64,000 bases of DNA from Pyxicephalus adspersus. Lineage: Eukaryota > Chordata > Amphibia > Anura > Pyxicephalidae. A program made the translations under genes and the position numbers. The notes beneath the pieces are model-generated. The model ran no database searches. It was not told the DNA's origin and worked only from the letters and a program-made list of their open reading frames with translations. Location of the stretch: assembly GCF_032062135.1 (NCBI RefSeq), contig NC_092866.1:24051879-24115878 (forward strand), given 5' to 3'. Below, piece by piece: positions 15,440 to 61,260 of the stretch (position 1 is the first letter of the stretch; each line of letters opens with the position of its first letter).

Positions 15440-16450
15440 CTTTAGGTCTATCTTTTTGCCCAGATCAAAATCTGTCCAAATTTGACACCATTTAAGACCT
15501 ACATCTCTTTGCTCAAAAGCTAATTCTTAAAGAAAGCTTGTTATTGAAAAAATAAGGGAAGTCAAATTTGAAAATGTGACTAAAATCATGTCTAATATTA
15601 CTAGAGAAGATTTAAAAGATTTGAATAATTTCATGGAATTTTAGGACAAAACAATTACGCTGAGGAAGGTAATCCATTATTCCAAAGTACTTCTACTTTT
15701 CCCCCAAAATATACAAATAAATCTCAAATCTTTCCACGTCTTCACTCCAAAAAAACATAGGGATGTTTCTCAAGTGTGTAATGACTGAAACTGATCAGCT
15801 ACCATTAACAAAAGACAAGATATATAATCCTAAATACCAACAGTAACAGGCCCTAAATACTCTCCAGAATAACTCATCTTTAATTATAAAACCATCCGAT
15901 AAGGGAGGTAATGTGAATATGGATGAACCACATTATATAAATATCAACAGGCAATACTATTCTTTCCTCTTACAGCGCACAGCGTCAGCATACTATCAGA
16001 AGTATCCCAATGGGACAATACCTTAGATTGAGAAGAATTTGCCCAAGTTTACAAGATTTACAAGATGAGGTAAAAAAACTTAGGGATAGGCTCCTGAGTA
16101 GAGGATATTCTAATTCTTTCCTAAAAAAGCTTACAATCAAGCTGCAAAAGCAGATAGATCAAATGTTTTGTATAAAACAAGGGAGGAAAACTACAAAAAC
16201 AAACAAAATATAGTATGCCTAATTACATCATTCACAAAACAAGTTATTTCTCTATTTGTCTGCTTCAACTGCCCATATAGTAATTTGACTGTTTCTATAT
16301 TACAGTACGACCACAGGCTGTATCTCATGATGTAGCTTATCTTAAACGTTTATCAATGTATACATTTTTTGATCAATCTACATATGGCCTCTTCTGATTT
16401 GATGAAGCGGACATTGTTCTGCGAAACACATCATCATTAGTAGATTTTTT
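15440..16450 (+). mobile_element. Penelope-like (Neptune-type) retroelement remnant
   Basis: Decayed coding text includes FAQKLILK near 15510 and SLIIKPSDKGGNV (about 15877-15920), the DKGG motif diagnostic of Penelope-like reverse transcriptases. At about 16010 comes the C-terminal block GQYLRLRRICPSL ... DRLLSRGYSNSFLKK, which in intact elements lies at the end of RT. The roughly 1 kb between these blocks, including the catalytic centre, is deleted, and the frame shifts at the join. No GIY-YIG endonuclease was found. A hammerhead-like motif follows at 16395. Confidence 0.75.
16395..16436 (+). ncRNA. Hammerhead-like ribozyme motif, copy 2
   Basis: Stem I is TGAT (16395-16398) with ATCA (16433-16436). 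The core box is TTGATGA, where CUGANGA is expected. Stem II is GCGGA with TTCTGC around a short loop. GAAAC is at 16423-16427, then ATC at the cleavage position. The first C of the core is changed and the second stem III pair is lost, so activity is doubtful. Confidence 0.5.
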
Positions 16451-17826: not shown

Positions 17827-17985
17827 TACAGGTAGTTCCCGAGTTAAGGACATCCGACATACAGATGACTCCTAAATACGAACGGAGCTTTCCCTGCTTG
17901 TTCGTGTGCAAGACGGAGGCTTGATGGGGGGGCGGTGTGCATGATTGGCAAAAGAGAGCTCTTCTGCAAACTCTTGTAACTCAAT

Positions 17986-19203
17986 GGGTAAATAAAAGTA
18001 GAGAAAAGAAAACTGTGATTTTTAAGGCAAAACAAATTTGTGTTGTATATTTTACATGATTAATTTTATATAACAACAGTGGTGATTAGTGGTCATTCCC
18101 AATAAATATTCATGGGATCTGTAGACCATTAGCTATACATGTCAGATACCTGACTAAATAACATAAGCATGGCTGGGTCTACACAGACATTTATAAAAAC
18201 ACATGTAAATGTTCATACTGGGTTTTTATCCACTTTTATTAGCGTATTAAAACTATGCCGCATTTTCCTTCATTTTTACCCTTTTTACGTTTTAAGTGCT
18301 TAAAAATGCCCCAAAACATGGGAAAACACCTCATTTAAATCAATGGAAGTGTTTACCCGCGATTTCCCGCATTTTTGGCCGTTTTCCAGCTTTAACCCAG
18401 GGTTTTATTTTTTTAAATGTTGCAAGCAACATTTAGAATAAAGCTCATAAACATGCCTCAAGGAAACGTCCTGGTCTAGATTAGCCCATTTGAATGCATG
18501 GGGATTTTAAACATGAGCTTTAAAAGCCTCAGCTTAAACGCTGGGGAAAACATTCGTGTAGACTAAGCCTAAAAGACATAAAGTCAATTGTCCTGACGCG
18601 TCCCACGGGCCAGCTAATTTACTGTTGGACATCCATGTGGGTGCTGTAGAGAGACCGACTCCCTGCTTTCACAAGACGAGAAGCCGATCTTACTAAACCC
18701 CCTGCTGCCATTTCATCAACACACACGCTGCAGGCTAATACCTATACCTCACCAAATGGAAAGCTGATCCCACGCAGCTCCCTTCTGTCATCTTTTAAAT
18801 ATACATGCTGCTGATCTACATTTATTTCTTGCAATATCCTGAAATATCTGGATCTTATTTCCCTTTCCTCATCATTATGGACTTATAATCCTAATCATAA
18901 CGAGACACCTAGCTACAACATATAACAAGTATTATCAGTCTCTGCAAAACCCCTGAGGAAGCCACACGGTGAAACGTGTCGGGCCATTTGACTTTACATC
19001 TTATGCTCATGGTTTTTAGTCAGCTTTTGGACATGTATAGCTAATGGTCTACATATCTTATGCCTATTCAATGGGAATGACCACATATTACTGTTGTTGG
19101 TGTATATGATCATCGTGATATATGATATATGATCGTGAAATATACAATACAAATTTGTTTTGCCTAAAAATCCCCAGTTTTCTTTTCTCTACTTATATTT
19201 ACC
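17986..19203 (+). mobile_element. Penelope-like element terminal segment with inverted arms
   Basis: The left arm 17986-18146 and right arm 19032-19203 are imperfect inverted repeats. Examples: AGAGAAAAGAAAACT and GGCAAAACAAATTTGT on the left match ACAAATTTGTTTTGCC and AGTTTTCTTTTCTCT on the right, and CCATTAGCTATACATGTC matches ACATGTATAGCTAATGG. The central part has no RT text but ends in a well-conserved hammerhead core at 18950. The assignment to a Penelope-like element rests on that motif and its resemblance to the 16395 context. Confidence 0.55.
18950..18983 (+). ncRNA. Hammerhead-type ribozyme motif, best-conserved copy
   Basis: All invariant boxes of a minimal type I hammerhead are present in order. 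Stem I 5' CCC; CTGAGGA (CUGANGA) at 18953-18959; stem II GCC/GGT around loop ACAC; GAAAC at 18971-18975; a two-base loop; GTC with cleavage expected after C18980; stem I 3' GGG. Stem III is only two pairs (A-T, C-G), as known for Penelope-element hammerheads, which are thought to work best as dimers. Confidence 0.65.
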
Positions 19204-19581
19204 TATATATTGTGGGGTGGCAAACATTAACATACAAAGGAAGGATTGCTATTCTTACTCTACATTTTAAGTCTTGTAACTCTTTGATGACCAAGAAAAA
19301 CTCTGCAGTTGTTTCTTTTTGCATATCAAAGCACAGCTTGCTCTAGAAGTTAATGAATGTCTAGACTCCATAAAGTTTTTTTTTTTTTATTTTGTTTATG
19401 ATTAACTCACAGTGAGGATTTTATACAGTAACTGACATCACGCTGCCTAATAATACATTGAGACAAACATCTGTCCTATTTGCATTTATTAAAATAATGT
19501 ACCTGTTCCGACTTACATACAAATTCAACTTAAGAACAAACCTACAGTCTGTATTTGGTATGTAACCTGGGACTACCTGTA

Positions 19582-32833: not shown

Positions 32834-33188
32834 TTAATAAAAAAGGATTATTGTGTTTTTTAAAGCAGCATAATATTATTAAACATTTGTTTGTTTCCTG
32901 TGGGCAACGATTGTGGTTTCTTATATTTTTAGTGCTTCGGACCATCAGTATCACAAAAACATAAAAAAACTGTGTATAGGACCTTTTCAGCATCTGGTGT
33001 ATGAAGAAATATTAAGACTGATTTACTTATGGTTTGTGAATGTTTGCACAACAAGTTATGCAATTGTTCACATTAATATCTCAGTTTTTAAAAAATAGGT
33101 GGATAATTGATCCTAATACGTATAAGTTTTATATTGGTCTTATCAAAGTGAGTGCATCCCTGGCTTGAAAGTATATGTGTGTGTATAT

Positions 33189-33221
<33 letters not shown>

Positions 33222-33611
33222 TATAAATATCTATCTATATATATGTATATATACAATATATATATATATATATACATACACACAATGTTGTATGTAGGTG
33301 TGTGTATATCTAAAAATCTATATATATAAAAAAGATGAAATATATGATGCCAAATTTGCAGGGTATGCAACATAAATAATTGTATTGCTGCAGATTTGCG
33401 GCTCTTTATTTGGGGATCCAGGCCCAAAGTGTCTTGGAAGGAATGGGTGGGCTAGGCACCCCACTCCAGAAATTTAGGATATCTAGGGAGCATCTGGCCA
33501 CTGATAATAAAAACACACCTGTCTTTGGAGACAGGGGGGAGTTTGCAGCCTGATGCCAGGTGGGCCAGCTGCAAAGGCTATGTGCAGCCTGTGAGCTGAG
33601 AGTAGGTCTTC
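32834..33611. other. Non-coding DNA with a TA/AT microsatellite
   Basis: A compound AT/TATA repeat spans about 33177-33330. The isoleucine/tyrosine-rich minus-strand frame across it is an artefact of the repeat. Confidence 0.55.
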
Positions 33612-33775
33612 CATAATTTATGGGGGTACATGTCTAAATACTAATTAGAGGAACCTCTCAGAAAAGGCCTAAACACAGCAAAATGTAACATAACTGAAAA
33701 CCCTATCAAGTCTATGGTAGAAAGCAAGGTAAAAAACAAAGAATGAAGGGAAACATGGAAAAAAATATGTCTGAT
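33612..33775 (+). repeat. Dispersed repeat, copy 1 of 2
   Basis: About 160 bp with a direct copy at 37212-37366. Shared text includes CATGTCTAAATACTAATT, AGAAAAGGCCTAAACACA, AAAACAAAGAAT and GGGAAACATGGAAAAA. Family unknown. Confidence 0.7.
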
Positions 33776-34067
33776 AGACCAGAGCCAGAAGGCTAAATTT
33801 GTGTTTTTGCATGTAATGTTGTGATGACTTGGATCCTCTGTGATGGAAAACACTGGATTTTTCTCTGTTTCATTGTGCTTTTGTGAATAAAAGTGGGCAG
33901 AGTGCTCTGAAATTAGAACCGCAGTCTAAAGAACCTCTCTGTAGCGAGTGTGTTTTGAAGCTAATCCCCACAGCATATACAACACATGGAACCTTTTAGT
34001 TTCATCACATGACACCAACTATATCATAAAAATATCTTTGACTTTGACAAAACAGTCATCAACCAAT
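33776..34067. other. Non-coding DNA
   Basis: Nothing recognisable. Confidence 0.5.
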
Positions 34068-34107
34068 GTCAACATGTTTCATAATCCAAAGTACGCTTTT
34101 TCAGGAC
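34068..34107 (-). ncRNA. Hammerhead-like ribozyme motif, minus-strand copy
   Basis: On the minus strand: stem I GTC, then CTGAAAA (CUGANGA with one G to A change), GAAAC, a two-base loop, GTT, then stem I GAC. Stem I pairs by three bases with a sequence different from the other copies. Stem II is poorly formed. Decayed Penelope-like remnant. Confidence 0.4.
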
Positions 34108-37100
34108 CAAAGAAGTAGTAAAAAAAAAAAGATCACTAAACAAATAACATGATATATAATAATTACAACATGATTTTTTAAATAAAGGAATCATCTCTGC
34201 TCCATAACTGCCACATCCCCTTATGTCATGCTAAAACACCAGGGATCAGAGCACACAAAGGAATTAAAAATGGAAATTAGCCATCGGAGCCCTTTAAGAA
34301 CTGAAGAGGAATTAGTGACTGAGCATAGGAGCATAGGCTGACTAAGCAATAATCTTGAGGAAGCCTATCCACTGATATCCTCCCTCCTTTTATTTTATTC
34401 AGTACCTGACAATTGGACCACAAAAAGCCAGCATTTTAATCAGATATGAATGTGTTCCAAATCAGATAACCGCCAAAGCAATGTCATTTGATGTAACCTG
34501 AACCCTTTTATGCATCCTCCAAAACTAAATTCCTCAGGCCTCACTAAAAGGCAATGTTAAGCCGATTCTTCTGGCAGGAAAACCAAACATCGGCCACTCC
34601 AAAATGTAACCCTAATATGAGCATGGGAGCACAAATGTAAACCAAGACAAAAAAAAAAATCAAGCGTGAACGGAACATTCTGAGAGGCACCACTAGGAGA
34701 CCTAAGACCTAAGATCAACATATAAAATGCACAATCAAACGAATCTACTGTAACAAAATTGATATCAATACATGAAGTTCACATAGAATAATACTCACTA
34801 CTGTAGATCACAATATTAACCACAAAGTATCTCTTCTCAATGACATAGGCAGATCCACAAGAAGAGGAACACGTGATGGCAACAGGTGCAGAGGGGCAGA
34901 AACAGCTAAGTACAGGGAAACCTAATAAATACTTAAAAAGATCATAAGTATAAGCTAGAAAATAAGCTAGAAAATAAAAATGTGTCAATGTTAAATGGAA
35001 CCATCAAGAGACTATATATTATTATAAAAGACCCATGATTAGGATCTTTTGAAAATATTTTGTGATGTGCATTGTAACATTACCTTTGTCATAGGCAATG
35101 GTTAAATTTTATCTTGTTCTTAAATTGATTAATCAGTAAAATACTTACTTTATTTTACCATATGCCTGCAAAGTCCCGCTCTTCTGCACATGAGACTTTT
35201 ATTGCCTATTATGATTTGGAATGTGGCATTGTTCGTTTTAGACATTGTCATTCCCTTATCAGCAAACCCTTTTCAATACATCTAATTACCTGACCAGTTG
35301 ATAGTTGTAAACACCTAATGGAGGTTCCAATCCCCCTACTCTAATATAAAACTAACTTCAATTTGGCCTAATTTACACTTTAGGTTTTACCTGATAATGT
35401 GGGCATTGAATGTATGGCTTTACACTGAAATTAATCCAATATTTTCCATTTTGTTGATATCTGGCTGCTTCTAAACTTTGCACAGAGATATTCAATTAAA
35501 AGACATGAAAACAAACCTTTAAAAAGAATGCTACCTAAATCCAAGATTATAGAATACAAATATTAGATTTACCTTGCGGAACAAGCAAAAATATCTTTAA
35601 AGATAAAGGTAAGATTGCTTCGTAAATTACAGCAAAACTCAGACTAAAGTTAAAAGACATTATAATTTAGGAAAAAGTTCATATAGCATCTTTTTCTAAA
35701 TGTGATCTGCTAGGTTGTGTAAAACTGGACCAAACAATCAGGACTGTGGGTAGACAGTGCTGTTGGGAACAGGGGTACTTTAATGGTAGTTAAAATGTTA
35801 AATGGCTAATTTATTGCCTGAATGAAAATTACCTATTATATCCTTTCTCCTGATTTGTGCAGTGGTATCCAGAGCTGCCATCAGAATGGTCTGAGCCCCA
35901 CACTGGGTAAACTTCCTGGATCCCCGTGTCTAAAAGTTCCACCATAGCAGAATTCAATTTGAGGGTCAGGGCTAATCAGTAAAGTCAGGTTCAAGTGAAG
36001 GTTCAGGCTCCTTTTGTACCCGGATCCTTTGCTGGCCTGCCCAGACCCCCCAATTTAAAATTGAAAAGCTGGCAAGGAAGTCACGTGCAAATGGAATGTC
36101 AGGATAGCCAGCAAAGGGGCCAGGTAAAAGTGAAGGGTCAGGTTCCACCTTCATCTGGATTCCTTGATAGCTAAACAGACTCATTACTTTCCCGTGATGG
36201 GGAAAAGTGTGTATGGTTACATATCACCTAATATTAGGGATGAAGGGTGCAGGGTAAACAGACCGTCAGTGACATACTACTCTTCTGTTTCTGCTTCTAT
36301 GTATTATTTAGGTGCTAGGATTAGCTTTCCAGCACCCAGTGCCAGGAGATAGAGGGAAAAGGTGGCCTGGGGCCACTATTAACTGTGGAGCGTGAGAGTG
36401 GAGTAGTAGATAAGCCCCTAGTACAGAGTTTTACCTGGCAGGCATGATCAAATCCAATACATTGGTCAGACCCAGTAGTGTAGTGCCCGTCTGATGGTGG
36501 TCCTTTTGGCAGTGTATATGTTTGTACCAGTCACAACTTACCCACAGCCAGGGTCAAACTGGGACACTTCAGCTTGGGGACCACCAGTGCCAGGGTATGG
36601 ATCCAACCTGCTTTAGGTTTTGGAGCTCATCAGCACCATAAAGTTGAGCCTATGTTAATTTCCAGTCAAATGTTTACACATAAAAATAATGCAAATTTGT
36701 AGCAAATCTATATAAAAAAGAAATTTTTGTTTACTTAAATATTCTGCAATTACAGTATGTGTAATGACAAACTTCACTAAAAAACATAAACATTACATCC
36801 AAGCACTAGATAAACATATTTTAAGTTGTATCCCTCTAAAAATTATTTCACACCTGTATTCTGTTATGTGTCTTGTAGAAGACAGCTTCTGTCTTACTAG
36901 TCTGAAAAAAAACAAAACTATTACTGATTTAAAAAGGGAGACGGATCAAAGTCTCCCCACTTATTCTAGCTGGTGGAAAAAATAGGTTTGAAATGCAAGT
37001 ACAGTAAAAAGGAGGAAAGGGAAAAAGGAGGGGACAGAGTGGAAGGTGGGGAGTGAGGAAGTCAGGGAGGAGATGAAGAAGGCACAAAAAGCAAAACCAG

Positions 37101-38229: not shown

Positions 38230-40085
38230 AAACTCTGCAACCTCTCCACACTTGAAAACTCGCCATTTCCCCTTTTTTGATCACAACCTTTTCATCTTCA
38301 ATGTATCTAATTCTTCTCCCACTTTGCCACATCCCAGACCAGGTTAATGGCAGAGAGATATCCATAACCTTGACCACAACCTATTCTCAAACTGCCTTAT
38401 GTCCCTTTCCGCCACTCTCTCTAAAATATCATCTCCAGATAAAGCTGCCACTCAGTTCAACCACGCTCTTTCTTTGGTTCTGGATAAAGTTGCCCCTGCC
38501 ACCTTTTGCTACTCCCACCCTGCTAACCCCTGACCCTGACAAAACACTCACACTAAAAACATCTACTACTCTTTGTGCAGTTGAGCGCTTGTCTGAGCGC
38601 CAACTTCATGGACTACAATGCCAGACTACAACACTTTAACACTGAACTCACAGTCGCCAAGCAAAATTATTTATCTACTGTCATATCCTCCCAAGCTTCC
38701 AACCCATGCAGCCTCTTTGACTCTCTCCTAAACCCCACACCTGCTCCCCATACAACTACCTTTTCTGCCCAAAACAAAGACTCCTACTTTAGAGAAAACA
38801 ATTGTCAAAATTAGACATGATGTCTCTGCCCACCATCCCACTCCAGCCATATCCATCCCTTCTAGTTGTTAATCACCGCTAACCTCCCTCAACTCGTTTA
38901 CTCTGGATAAGATCTTCTCTTCTTCTCTCATTTTTCCACCCTGGTGCCCGCTCTAACTAAACTATTCAACCTCCTCCTTTCTAATGGTATGTACCCCTCC
39001 TCTTTGAAACATGCCATTATTCTCCCTATCCTAAAGAAAACCCTTACTAGACCCCTCCCTACCTTCTATCTACTGTCCTATCTCCCTTCTCCCATATGTT
39101 TCCAAACTTGTCTTGCAAACTTGTCTATAAAAGACTCACAAATTACTTGAACACCAACTCACTTCTTGACCCACCACAGTCTGGCTGTCGAGCTGCCCAT
39201 TCTCCTGAAACAGCCCTTACTATAGTGGCCAAAGACCTTCTCAGTTAAGTCTCAAGGCAACTTTTCCCTCCCCCTTCTCCTTGACCTTTCCCCTGCTTTT
39301 GACACTGTTGATCACCCCCTTCTAATTCAAATCATGCGCTTCATTGGTATCTGTGACACTGCTCGGTAGACTCATAGCCTCCTTTGGTTTACAGTACCAT
39401 CTGTATGCTGATGACACTGAAATCTATCTGCTGACTTGTCACCCTCAGTCCTGGATAAGGTCTCATGCTGCCTGTCAGCCAGCTCATTATGGATAGCTGA
39501 CAGATTTCTGAAACTGGATAAAACAGAACTCATTCAAACAGAACCCCCCACTCAAATTCTTAATCTCCCCCTCACATTTTTCTAACTGTTAACAACACTG
39601 TTATTCGCCACTCCCCTCGGGCACATTGCCTTGGTATCACCTTTACATTCTGCCCTAATATTTACTCCTCATATTCAGAACATTTTCAGGTCCTGTCACT
39701 TTCACCTGTGCAACATCTTCAAAATCCACCCCTACCTGTCCCCAGAGACAACCAAACTCCTTGTACATACTCTGATCATCTCTCGTCTGGACTACTGTAA
39801 CCTCCTCCTCTTTGGTATTCCACTAATCCCACTCTTTCCTCTACAATCTATTATGAGTGCTGCAGCCAGATGTATCCATCCTTCCCAGCACTCTTCTTCT
39901 GCTCCATCTCTTTGTAGTTCTCTTCATTGGCTTCCATTTCACCTGAGAATCAAATTCAAGCTCCTCTGCTGTGCTTTCAAATACCTCCAAAACCCATCCT
40001 TTCAAACTTGACCATCCTTCTTCTAAACCTCTCTCCTAAACCTTCACTACTTCCGACCACTCCATATCTCCCACTCTTACTCCTT
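38230..40085 (+). mobile_element. L2-like LINE, broken RT open frames
   Basis: Successive frames carry L2-type ORF2 text: LSTAKQNYL-like linker with ASNPCSLFDSLLNPTPAP near 38700; ALTKLFNLLLSNGMYPSSLK near 38950; [13 protein letters not shown] (catalytic YxDD box) near 39395; HIQNIFRSCHFHLCNIFKI and SRLDYCNLLLFGIP near 39680-39810; SLHWLPFHLRIKFKLL near 39925. The endonuclease is mostly missing. There are multiple stops and frameshifts and a deletion just before the YADD box. The 3' end is lost, so there is no tail. The copy cannot encode an active protein. Confidence 0.85.
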
Positions 40086-40797: not shown

Positions 40798-41411
40798 TAG
40801 GAATGAGCGAGCGAGAATATTAAGTTTGATCTCGTGGTGAATTGGTCCTTTCTCGCTTACCGAAAATGTAAGCGATAACGGCCTTCTGATTCGCTGAGAG
40901 GTTGAGCTCTCGCTGAACAGAAGGATTTCCAGGGCTTCATCATGCAGCCCTGGAAATCCTCTGCGATCCCCAGGCACTAGAGATTAATTAACCTCTAGTG
41001 CCCTGGGGATCGCACACTCTTCTCAATGAATCCAGCCACATCTGTAATCATTGAGAAGATGCCAAACACAGGTGAACCTCCTGACATTGTAAAATAAGTA
41101 TCTCCTACAAATCATACATTTGTATCTGTAACAAATGTATCATTTGTAAGAGATACTTATATTACAATGTCAGGAGGTTCTCCTTTGCTGGGTATCTTCT
41201 TAATGATTGCAGCTGTAGCTGCATTCATTGAGAGGAGTGTGTGATCCCCGGGGCACTAGAGGGTAATTAACCTCTAGTGCTCGGAGTTCGCGCGAACAGA
41301 AGGATTTCCAGGGCTTCATCATTAAGCCCTGGAAATCCTCTGTGATCCCTAGGCACTAGAGGGTAATTAACCTCCCCGGGGATCACAAGTAGGGGGATTC
41401 GCTCATCCCTG
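40798..41411. mobile_element. Fold-back hAT MITE, 614 bp
   Basis: Termini TAGGAATGAGCGAGCG and (complement of the right) CAGGGATGAGCGAATCC, with exact 8 bp duplication TTTCTAAG. The inside is one large nested inverted repeat centred near 41125. CTCCTGACATTGTAAAATAA pairs with TATTACAATGTCAGGAG, and CACTAGAG/CTCTAGTG with GGGGATC blocks recur on both sides. Small hairpins such as CCAGGGCTTCATCATGCAGC sit near each end. No transposase. A partial second copy starts at 47399. Confidence 0.85.
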
Positions 41412-47660: not shown

Positions 47661-48424
47661 ACTTGGTTAATTGCTTAAAACAAACAATAATACCACACTG
47701 AAAACTCACAGCTGAGCCGCACGATTACACACCAGTTTCCCCGTATGATACAGTCCGCGTCCCATGCGTCTCATTTCAAGCCCTACCTAGAACTGTACGT
47801 AATGAATCGTTTGGAGTCCTTTTGGAGTTTTTCATTGCTCCCACTTTTTGCGTTTATGGACTTTTCCCTTTCCTTAGGACTAATATATACAACATTAAAA
47901 CCGTAGGTACCATATAAACAACTAGATGTGATTTAAAGTAAGTGGGTTGTTAACCACAGTGAATGTGCACAAAATGGTTAAAAATGGACAAATATGGGTC
48001 GGTTACCATTTTAGTAAACGGTGGTGGATTCAAACGACGATAGTACTAATTATATGGTGATCTGAATGTAAAGAGATGGGCATGTTGTATAACTGATTAA
48101 TAATTGGCTGGCTTTTCACACATTACATTTGAGGTGTTTGGCTATGATGCATGAGGCATGTAAAACATGATGGGACAGATAAACTAAAGTGCTGTCATAT
48201 TTATGTTGATAATAGATTAAAGCAGATAACAGCTTTATTGCCATGACCACCGGTTTGTTCCCCGCCATTGATTCTAACAGAGAGTGTTGCTGAAAACACA
48301 AGTATCAGGTACATTGATGTGTAATATGTTTACTTTAATGTATTTTTTTTTTCTGCTAATGTAATAATAACTTGTTTGATGGTAACAATGTAATCTTCTT
48401 TATGGTTGTAGATTCTCTATCCTC
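47661..48424. other. Non-coding DNA
   Basis: No gene. The last 100 bp may be Penelope-like flank. Confidence 0.45.
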
Positions 48425-48464
48425 TCTCCTGAGGAAGCGGATATTTCCACAAATTGCGTAGAGA
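48425..48464 (+). ncRNA. Hammerhead-like ribozyme motif, copy 4
   Basis: Stem I TCTC (48425-48428) with GAGA (48461-48464). CTGAGGA is intact at 48429-48435 and stem II starts GCGG. The GAAA box is degraded to AAAT by changes that look like CpG decay. GCGTA is at the cleavage side. Inactive but recognisable. Confidence 0.5.
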
Positions 48465-50398
48465 ACTAACTCAGAATGCATCCCTCACAGGGACACTCTG
48501 AAAGGAGAGGTTATTACATGTAAAAATGGTTTTATGTGGTTTTTTGTATTTGAAATTAGTTTTTTAATGTAAATATTAATAAAATTTTGTTATTTTCATA
48601 ATACATGTTGTTGATATTGGTCTACAAAATCCCGCTACAAAAATTGGTGTTCTTCATCGTATGTTCCTTTTTTTCTTGGTTTAAAAGGGAAGCGGCCTAT
48701 GTGAGGTATAACATATGTATAGTCGGAAATCCTTTTTAAATATGCCAGATTATTGTGTTTTTGCCAGTGTCTCACCTCACTACTAATGCTGCTTCTGCAT
48801 TGCCTTTCTGCTGCTCACTTGTGTACTGACCTTTGGCTACGGAATTATCAACTACTCTTTGTTGCCCGCTACCTTTACCTGATTAAATGGATACTGACTT
48901 TGGCTCTCTCCCTTTGGAAATGTATGCAAATCTTGAAAATTATCCCACAGTCTAAATAAAAGCTAAATAGGATACTAAAGATATAGCCCTTAAAATTATG
49001 TGATCAATACATATAAAGCTGAGAATCTAAACATAAAAAATAAAACATTTCAGTCATTTAAAAAGTACCTTAATTCAAAAAACCCTGTCCCCAAGCAGGC
49101 CTGGTGTGTGATGAATCTCTCTTGTCCCTATATTATCATAATGTATCTTCTCTTGTCTCGACATTATCAGAAAAATTTGAGTGAAGAAGTTGCCATTACA
49201 TTACAGAATATTGGTATTATTCTGGAAGTTTTGAAAGGACTAAAATGATGTCTACCTTGTAACATGTAAGAAAAAATTCCTTGTACACCATCATAAACCA
49301 TGATCATGGACTTAAATCAGTTGATTATGTAAGAACAGAGGAACAAAATATTGAGAATTGAGGCTTGAGAACTGGAAATGTATATTTCAATCTCTGTATA
49401 TATCCATATCTATCTATATGCTAAAGGTAAAACAGTGCACTGGATAGGCCCACAGCAAAACAAGATAAGCGTTGGGCCTACATGATACGGTGTGAAAAGT
49501 AGAGGGGATGCAGGGGTTAAATAGAAGGAGGGGTCAGTACGGTATAGGTAATAGAAGTACGGTAATAGAAGGTAGTAGTACGGTATGGAGAAAGTAAGGT
49601 GTTAAAGGGGGTAGGCAAGAAAGATCTAGAACAGTTTTTGGTGAGGAAAAGTTTCATGTCTGCCCATTCCTAGGGGTAAGGGGTGGAGAGGTAAGCCGGG
49701 CAGTTGGAGCCTTGGAAGACAAGGGTCCTGTTCGATAATTTTTGTAACCAATTTTGGTGTGGTGCGCACAGTCCCTGAGGCAGTACTGGGCAGCTAGGAG
49801 CCATTGTAGTGTGATGGCTTGGAATTAAGAATCCGGTTTGGCTTGCCTTCCGGACCTTCAGCCTTGTTCGTGGGTTTAAAAAGGGTATGTTTGTTGTCTA
49901 CAAAGAATTAGGTATTTTATGTTATTGTGTAAATTGTTTTAAAGATGTTGTTTTAAAGATGTTGCCATTTTAAGTCCAGAGATGTTTCAGTGTGTGATTT
50001 AAAGTTGGGGGGAGGGGCAATGGGGCTGGGAAAGGAAAACGGTAAAGGGGGGGGGGGGGCGACGTCTGAGCTACCCTGGTCAAGCGCACATATAAACTTT
50101 ATTGAAAATATAGTAAAGCTGATTTGCAAAGGGAGTAAAATTTTCCTTTAAAACTTGTATAAATATATTCAATTCAGTTACTCATTCATGTGAAAAGTAC
50201 ATCCCTCTTGACTTTAATACCTAAATTATGTATGGATGCTTTTCAAATAAATAGATATTTGAACTGAATAATTACATACTTTTGAGTAAATATTCTTAAC
50301 CCCTTTATAAATCATCTTTATCTATTTATTAAAAGGTGAATTAACTTGGTGAAGCAGCCCAACTGAGTATAAAATACACTTAAAAAGAAACAACTTAA
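48465..50398. other. Non-coding DNA
   Basis: 48465-48650 may be Penelope-like 3' flank. 49430-50060 is G-rich and repeat-like, with a 13-base G run at 50047-50059, and was not assigned. No gene. Confidence 0.4.
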
Positions 50399-59339: not shown

Positions 59340-61260
59340 GTGGACAGATAGATTTGTATGTCATCAGCATACAGATGGTACTGTAAAGGAGGATATGAGA
59401 CCACCAACTGAGGAGGTGTACAGAGAAAGGAGAACCGGTCCAAGGACTGACCCTTGGAGATCACAGGGAGGAGAGTAAAAAGGTGGAAATACCAAGGAAC
59501 TTGAAAGGATCAGTCATATAGGTAGGAAGTAAACCAAGAGAGAGTAGTGTCACTGATACCAATGGAGCTCATGATTTAAATTAAAAGGGGGTGGTCAACA
59601 GTGGCAAAAGCAGAGAAAAGATATAGGAGGAGGAGGGAAAAGTTCTGTTGTGACATCGGTAGAATAGGCAGCTCGAAAGCCAGACTGGAGAGAGTTGGTA
59701 TTCAGATAGACAGTGAGTCTTTTATGGATAATGCCCTCAAGAAGTGTGAATACATATAAGAAAAGGGAGATAGGACAGTAGCTAGAAGATGGGAAAGGGT
59801 CTATTGAGGGCTTCTTTAAGATAAAGGGAACAATGGCATGATTAAAAGCGGGGGGGGGTAGATACCAGTAGAAATGGAAAGGTTGAATAGTTTGGTTAGT
59901 GTGGAGACCAGAGTGGAGGAATAAAAATGGAGCAGATCAAAGTTTATTGGGATAAGCAGACTTGTAAATAAGTAGGCAGTAGATGGAGGTGATGAGAGAG
60001 GAGAGCAGACTTCATCCAGAGTAACAGGGTTGAGGAAGGTTAATGATTTACAGCAGGAAGGGATGGATTTGGTTGGAGTGGCATAGTGGGCAGAGACATT
60101 ATGTTAGGGGGAGCTGGTGTGTGGTTTAGAAGGCAGTCAAAAGTTTGAGAAGCGGCTGCATAGGTTGGAAGCTTGGGAGGATATGACAGTAGAGAAATAA
60201 TTTTGCTTTGTGATATTGTGTGCAGTATTAATGTGTTGTAGAATGGCTTTGTGGTCCATAAAGTCAGTTCTGAGGCCAAATTTCCTCTACTTGCGCTCAG
60301 CTGCACAAACAGTCTTTTGCAGATGTTTGGTGTGAGTGTTGTGCCAGGGTCAGGGGTTAGCAGGGTGCGGGTTGCGGAAGGTGGCAGGAACAACTTTATC
60401 CAGACCTAAAAAAAAGTGTGGATGAATTGAGTGTCAGCTTTATTTGTAGATGTTTGTATTTTAAAGATAGGGCAGAAAAGACTGAAGGAATGCACTTCAA
60501 AAGAAGTGAAAATGAAAGAAGGGGGGAGTAGGAAGAACTCTGAATGTACAATTATGGAAGAGAATGAGACCCACACCCCCAACTACTCCGTTGCCAGGAC
60601 TAGGGGTTTGTGCAGGCCTCCATAGGAGAGTGTAGCAGCAGAGACAAAAGTCTGAGAAGGAAAGACAAATTTTAATGAGAGACAGGAAGTTCAGGAATTT
60701 ACATAGGAGAAGGTTGTGGATAGAGGTTAGTTTATTGCTGGGGGGGTTTATTGCCAAGGGGGTAAGAATTTTTGAGTTGAGTGAACAGGAATGAGGTTAG
60801 GAGGAAGGAGTATTTTGCTGAAATTGTAGGGAAGAGAGAGGCTCTGGGGGGGATCAGGGTTGGGCGAAATGTCACCAGCTGGAAATAATAGAGAAAAAAG
60901 GTACAGGATTACAGTCAGAGAAATCAGGAGAGCAACTGAGCAGGCATACAGTGAGTTAACAGATAGGAGGAGGAGAAAAGGGAATAGAACCAGCAGAGTT
61001 TGAACAGGGTGAATGAAATACAGTAACAAATAATGGTAAATCACAGGAGTACACTAGACAATGTAGCAAACTTAAGTCCATGTGAGTGTCAGCTGCAGTA
61101 GGGGTTGTAGTGAGGCTTGTCAGCTTGTTAAATTCCAGGTGTGGGATAGGATGAGTCAGCTAGAAGGGGTGGCATGGTGAAAAGGCAGTTCAAGATGGTA
61201 GCAGCAGAGGTTTTGTTGCTGTGAGTCCAGTGTGGGTTGTTGAGTCCAGGTGGAAACTTG
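59340..61260 (-). mobile_element. L2-like LINE with N-terminal 2A-like motif and RT remnants
   Basis: On the minus strand from 61044: a hydrophobic N-terminal region ending in AGDISPNPDPPQSLSL (about 60840-60880), then a shortened endonuclease region. At 60393-60040 comes linker text homologous to the 38530-38800 stretch of the + strand copy (LLTPDPGTTLT, FDCLLNHTPAPPN). After frame breaks there is RT text [26 protein letters not shown] and [16 protein letters not shown] near 59350. The copy is truncated 3' of the YADD box. The 5' limit is approximate. Confidence 0.8.

Follow-up and report, generated by a model that had tools for sequence, protein, structure and literature searches.

The question raised by this locus is whether a short motif near position 18950 of the window (the whole 64,000-nucleotide stretch of frog DNA analysed here) is a real hammerhead ribozyme, and if so, what kind of element carries it and what it may have done there. 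Within the 40 bases from 18947 to 18986 of the plus strand, the sequence reads CCC-CTGAGGA-A-GCC-ACAC-GGT-GAAAC-GT-GTC-GGG, and the core elements that the preliminary description had placed at 18950-18983 are indeed there in the order it gave. The type I order CUGANGA ... GAAA ... NUH is followed with all three stems: stem I is CCC/GGG, stem II is a short GCC/GGT helix with one G-U pair, and stem III is reduced to one A15.1-U16.1 pair that closes the loop CGTG, in keeping with the very short stem III that had been ascribed to the Penelope kind. C3 falls on 18953 and C17 on 18980, and following the hammerhead scheme we predict cleavage between 18980 and 18981. A canonical hammerhead core has stem II directly after A9. 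Here, A9 is followed by an extra A at 18960, a base that is nearly fixed among the copies of the frog genome and that had been passed over, together with the G-U pair, when stem II was described. The core had been called near-consensus, which is right for its letters, while the extra A and the lack of any match to the Rfam hammerhead models in this window set it apart from the textbook form. Since minimal hammerheads are already described for Penelope-like elements (PLEs; PMC7761336), the site at 18947-18986 is a new example of a known motif type.

The first explanation to be weighed is a chance match inside unrelated repeats, and the window taken alone leaves some room for it. The strict motif (core, with at least three pairs in both stem II and stem I) is present once in the window, and 6 of 300 dinucleotide-shuffled windows contain it too, so the window by itself is only moderate evidence; the loose pattern CTGANGAN{4,30}GAAA is common, with 9 occurrences against 4.1 expected, a count that 5 of 100 shuffles reach and that is unremarkable alone. 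The Rfam search to which the preliminary description had pointed came back empty: no family attains its gathering score across the 64-kb window, and the hammerhead models give no match at E 10 in the 3001 or the 66 bases around the 18947 site. The curated hammerhead models thus miss the PLE-type class in this window.

A covariance model specific to this genome, R1, built from 39 other hammerhead copies of the same genome, recovers the 18947 site over the whole motif length with 39.2 bits (E 1.1e-11) among nine window matches listed up to E 10. The copies come from the first 100 listed places for the loose pattern, 48 of which (counted by eye) have CTGANGAAG; 40 of these were fetched after being picked by eye as hammerhead-like, a choice that may flatter stem II, which the listing displayed, and does not flatter stem I, which it did not display. 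One of the 40, L029, was left out of the alignment, the regular expression having run beyond its hammerhead. Over the 1.44 Gb of genome searched, the near-intact core pattern has 7840 matches against 13 in a backward-read control, and the hammerhead motif recurs thousands of times in this frog.

The copies also change in the way expected of a paired RNA. When the 39 are aligned on the hammerhead structure, 81% of cells are paired, with a covariation score of 0.424 against 0.202 for shuffled and at most 0.164 for slid alignments, and both sides have changed in 58 cells, compared with 27 after shuffling; compensatory changes are found in stems I and II. Grouping by flank similarity reduces the 39 copies to 35 groups, and with one copy per group stem I holds 2.77 of 4 pairs against 2.11 after shuffling, a value that none of 10,000 shuffles reaches. 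Genome counts of three stem I arm combinations agree, with 2625 for CCC/GGG, 766 for CTC/GAG and 141 for CTC/GGG, where a U-G pair is still possible in the last. Flanking arms do pair among the genome's copies, the opposite of the outcome that the preliminary description had set as its refutation, and the suggestion that stem I pairing was kept in the parent families while its sequence changed is borne out. The search pattern left the cleavage triplet free; 37 of the 40 fetched copies have GTH there (the others having ATT, GTG and, in L029, TTT), and the six-base strand of stem III is self-complementary in 34 of 39, by an eye count that allows G-U and in which the first two letters are imposed by the pattern. 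These data support the view that RNA-level constraint acted in the parent families of the hammerhead. The R1 match, the pairing of stem I across copies with its covariation, and genome counts in the thousands against 1 to 13 in backward controls rule out a chance origin for the 18947 motif, which we consider extremely improbable in spite of the common loose pattern and the shuffles that contain the strict motif; the preliminary statement that chance is unlikely is well justified, as is its classification of the motif as a minimal, Penelope-like hammerhead of type I, which the R1 match and the covariation support.

Besides the main site, four weaker relatives had been proposed in the window, and R1 independently gives firm support to three of them. 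The second copy lies at 16393-16438 on the plus strand (28.0 bits, E 1.2e-7), with stem I TGAT/ATCA, a T at the C3 position and ATC as cleavage triplet. The third, at 34065-34110 on the minus strand (23.2 bits, E 6.4e-6), is decayed and has stem I GTC/GAC. The fourth, at 48423-48466 on the plus strand (19.5 bits, E 1.5e-4), has stem I TCTC/GAGA and a decayed GAAAC part; a copy similar to it with that part intact is found at C1:36756446, among the matches listed. The stem I arms of these three are exactly as previously quoted. The remaining candidate, at 840-882 on the plus strand, is marginal (12.5 bits, E 0.048) and not established as a fifth copy, its score being indistinguishable from chance and lower than that of a weak partial match at 1249-1270 (13.7 bits, E 0.018), which may be a broken hammerhead or chance.

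The carrier of the 18947 hammerhead is a family of non-coding repeats with at least 29 loci. With 18860-19230 as the DNA query, 49 matches were obtained, 40 of 77 candidates being scored; 30 loci were fetched, 29 of them distinct with the window's own included, and R1 matches all 30 at E 0.05 or better. The alignments begin in two ways: of the 28 copies outside the window, 15 also match upstream of 18928, as far as 18561 at most; the remaining 13 start to match at 18928-18934, and several of the 13 have another upstream body in common. Hence the hammerhead and its 3' tail, at 18928-19267 on the plus strand, form a unit shared by two subfamilies with differing upstream bodies, that of the long subfamily lying at 18561-18927 on the same strand (the longest match, L060, covers 18561-19267 of the query). 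The window also holds an inverted partial copy of the tail at 17984-18170 on the minus strand, head to head with the main copy and matching 19003-19206 at 75%, and such head-to-head partial copies are found within the fetched flanks of 10 of the 29 distinct loci, the window included. Penelope elements have terminal repeats with partial inverted copies, and the family shares this feature. An intact core survives in only 13 of the 28 other copies, and all three stem I pairs in 12 of 26 scorable ones, so the family copies are decaying fossils.

Two observations on the arrangement of hammerheads may be recorded here. Among the matches listed on C1 and C2, seven pairs of hammerheads, picked out by eye, lie less than 1 kb apart, and all are divergent with the minus copy first (for example C1:5258877-5258912 minus and C1:5259195-5259230 plus), so the head-to-head arrangement may be usual for these elements in this genome. 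In locus L058, the best R1 match among the family loci (43.7 bits, at 944-984 of the locus) belongs to a second hammerhead, which precedes the family's own by about 640 bases on the same strand.

The relation of this repeat to Penelope-like elements is then to be considered. For PLE loci in the genome, a Pfam search for GIY-YIG gave three matches, one of them SLX1-like by reading, and for this reason a PLE EN protein, which itself matches GIY-YIG, was used as the query instead; it gave 150 matches, with 150 scored out of 1009 candidates. Scanning for PLE protein with a hand-made motif yielded three approximate matches, none of them exact. The GIY-YIG match at L050 (C7:5695817-5695966), from its open reading frame read by eye, looks like a host SLX1 nuclease and not a transposon. 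The loci called PLE here are presumably such, judging by the GIY-YIG match of the query protein and by the RT and EN motifs that we recognised in them.

Against 29 PLE loci read in three frames, the window shows a Penelope-like RT coding remnant at 15838-16285 on the plus strand, upstream of the 16393 hammerhead copy and on the same strand. Its best single match is 15941-16198 to L095 (E 1.8e-15), matches with E no higher than 0.01 inside 15941-16285 come from 16 of the 29 loci, and the reversed window gives no match at E 0.01; no EN domain match was found for the remnant at 15838-16285. For the 18947 element itself, the same 29 loci give no coding match within 17984-19267, and no ORF with RT and GIY-YIG EN was found on it. 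The idea of a Penelope-like remnant in the window thus holds for the neighbourhood of the 16393 copy, and is not supported for the 18947 element, which belongs to a non-coding family. Around the other copies, candidate PLE coding was rejected: near 48423, the stretch 47501-47632 matches in two reading frames and is therefore repeated DNA, not coding, and upstream of the 34065 copy no match is listed for 33000-36500. In the genome, hammerhead matches occur in 4 of 30 EN loci with flanks of about 1.5 kb, three of the four being downstream on the EN strand, so that the genome-wide link is modest; one locus, L096, has an RT-like ORF, EN and a hammerhead in this order on one strand. A tail common to the window element and the PLE loci was looked for and rejected, since what matches is the hammerhead alone or else stretches of weak similarity, and for this reason mobilisation in trans stays a matter of inference. 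With these small numbers, the PLE link is supported for the hammerhead class and is extended to the 18947 element by inference.

Comparison with known hammerheads places the frog motif in the same class. The minimal PLE hammerheads of Lunse et al. (2017) are reported to be like it in type I order, minimal stem III, association with PLEs and large copy number, and in dimer cleavage, which for the frog is predicted only; they come from other genomes. The PAc hammerhead of Poseidon from Anolis carolinensis is also of PLE type, having the core with stems I and II, but it resides on an autonomous element whose ORF begins at stem II, unlike the window element with no PLE coding match (PMC11167929). 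The satellite and retrozyme hammerheads of newt and axolotl share the one-pair helix III with its palindromic tetraloop and are reported to cleave as dimers (PMC7229834), which brings in the explanation that the frog element is a metazoan retrozyme, namely a small non-LTR element in tandem that moves through circular RNA and has a canonical hammerhead of type I, rather than a PLE derivative. The frog repeat is likewise non-coding, amphibian and of type I, and its palindromic helix III loop is as in axolotl retrozymes (PMC7229834). However, tandem repeats of 170-400 bp with a canonical hammerhead are not what was found: no tandem array is reported at 18.9 kb, and the family copies are dispersed, with head-to-head partners in 10 of 29. 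The newt and axolotl hammerheads are described with loop-loop contacts and in tandem repeats (PMC7229834), whereas the minimal frog motif lacks the length needed for loop 1 and loop 2 to touch as in retrozymes and in addition contains the extra A. A retrozyme origin is thus quite improbable.

Folding shows how the window copy itself may behave. In the monomer a rival hairpin has -10.6 kcal/mol against -5.4 for the hammerhead without the lone A-U pair, or +1.4; in the dimer the rival fold has -31.2 against -10.0 kcal/mol, and the predicted fold of the 18947 site is no more stable than those of its shuffled versions (z -0.36, 70/200). Given the more stable rival hairpin, the 18947 copy is probably inactive alone, or nearly so as far as such energies predict, and it is probably a fossil that is not under selection now. 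On the whole, we assign a probability of roughly 80% to the reading that the site is a decayed minimal type I hammerhead of the PLE type, carried by an interspersed repeat that is itself non-coding and that the frog's own PLEs most likely mobilised in trans.

For the source RNAs, the most likely mechanism is the following. The centre of stem III would be the palindrome ACGCGT, and two hammerheads would pair their stem III strands; since ACGCGT is self-complementary, stem III could form between separate RNAs or between neighbouring units of one tandem transcript, which would then be cut as a dimer. In the window the strand reads ACGTGT, and its self-pairing uses two G-U pairs. Dimer cleavage has been reported for amphibian retrozyme hammerheads, where helix III has a palindromic tetraloop, and for PLE variants (PMC7229834, PMC7761336, PMC6466107). 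The cut would come after GTC, in the dimer or with the aid of a PLE protein, and would split tandem or read-through transcripts into element units serving as templates, with the non-coding repeat carried in trans by PLEs.

The most distinctive feature of the family remains the extra A next to the catalytic core. With stem II GCC..GGC, 4,087 copies in the genome have it, 70 have C, G or T in its place and 4 have no extra base, while the backward-read control for the extra-A pattern gives 1 against the 4,087. Of the first 100 listed places, 26 have a stem II (at least three pairs, closing on GAAAC) that starts one base after A9, the base being A in all 26; in 1 place such a stem starts directly after A9, in 6 two or three bases later, and 67 lack it. 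In the 35 flank-independent copies, a set preselected for A plus a following G, the first three positions of stem II are paired in 88% with one unpaired nucleotide after A9, and in 29%, 48% and 45% in the other registers. One genome, with its 7840 near-intact core matches, offers a large natural data set for a hammerhead core that is one nearly fixed base off the textbook. Viral contigs contrast with the frog genome, having 33 stretches with the extra-A pattern against at least 120 without the A, though these may be chance or coding matches. The literature searched, outside whose scope two primary descriptions of PLE hammerheads lie, makes no mention of an extra A in PLE hammerheads.

A precedent is offered by the plus-strand hammerhead of the viroid CChMVd, which is said to be of type III and to have an extra A next to A9. 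One extra A in the catalytic core of this viroid hammerhead is on record (PMC3705267; de la Pena and Flores 2001 cited there), in one RNA, whereas the frog has a genome-wide family. An extra nucleotide of this kind is reported to accompany weak activity (PMC11014351), and an engineered hammerhead with an extra adenine somewhere in its core is reported to cleave more slowly but in the end completely (PMC12531169). In the frog, the probable effect of the nearly fixed A is either to slow the bare ribozyme or to make space for a contact with a protein or a dimer partner. We tentatively propose, as a possibility on the unlikely side, that the extra A is the selected, defining mark of a distinct core variant, a deliberately slow ribozyme gated by protein or dimer, which PLEs would retain in order to restrict cutting to assembled element RNAs; non-coding repeats would copy it together with the tail, as a detachable unit, to hitch-hike on PLE machinery.

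The same near-fixation would also be expected if the conserved fold were a recognition element inherited from a hammerhead, for binding of PLE protein or for the start of reverse transcription, in which cleavage no longer matters and the extra A marks the loss of fast catalysis. The hammerhead and tail stay constant under differing upstream bodies, which is how a recognition unit would be expected to behave, and for the Anolis PLE it is reported that cleavage required protein and was dispensable for insertion in vitro, cleavage-dead mutants still inserting (PMC11167929), a result that also counts against the main reading. Pure binding, however, does not obviously require the GTH triplet kept in nearly all fetched copies, and this explanation seems to us doubtful. 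The role of the ribozyme for these retrotransposons has been termed unknown (PMC7761336, 2020), and with the frog copies both this role and the reasons for the slowness and protein-dependence of PLE hammerheads become testable; the nearly fixed A and the detachable unit of hammerhead plus tail are what we think worth following.

Two further inverted structures were seen elsewhere in the window. The stretches 38395-39364 and 59542-60488 form an inverted pair of about 1 kb with 68% identity, and nearby open frames look LINE-like by eye. At 40917-41343 there is a long palindrome, with 84% over 435 bases against its own reverse complement, possibly a foldback DNA element.
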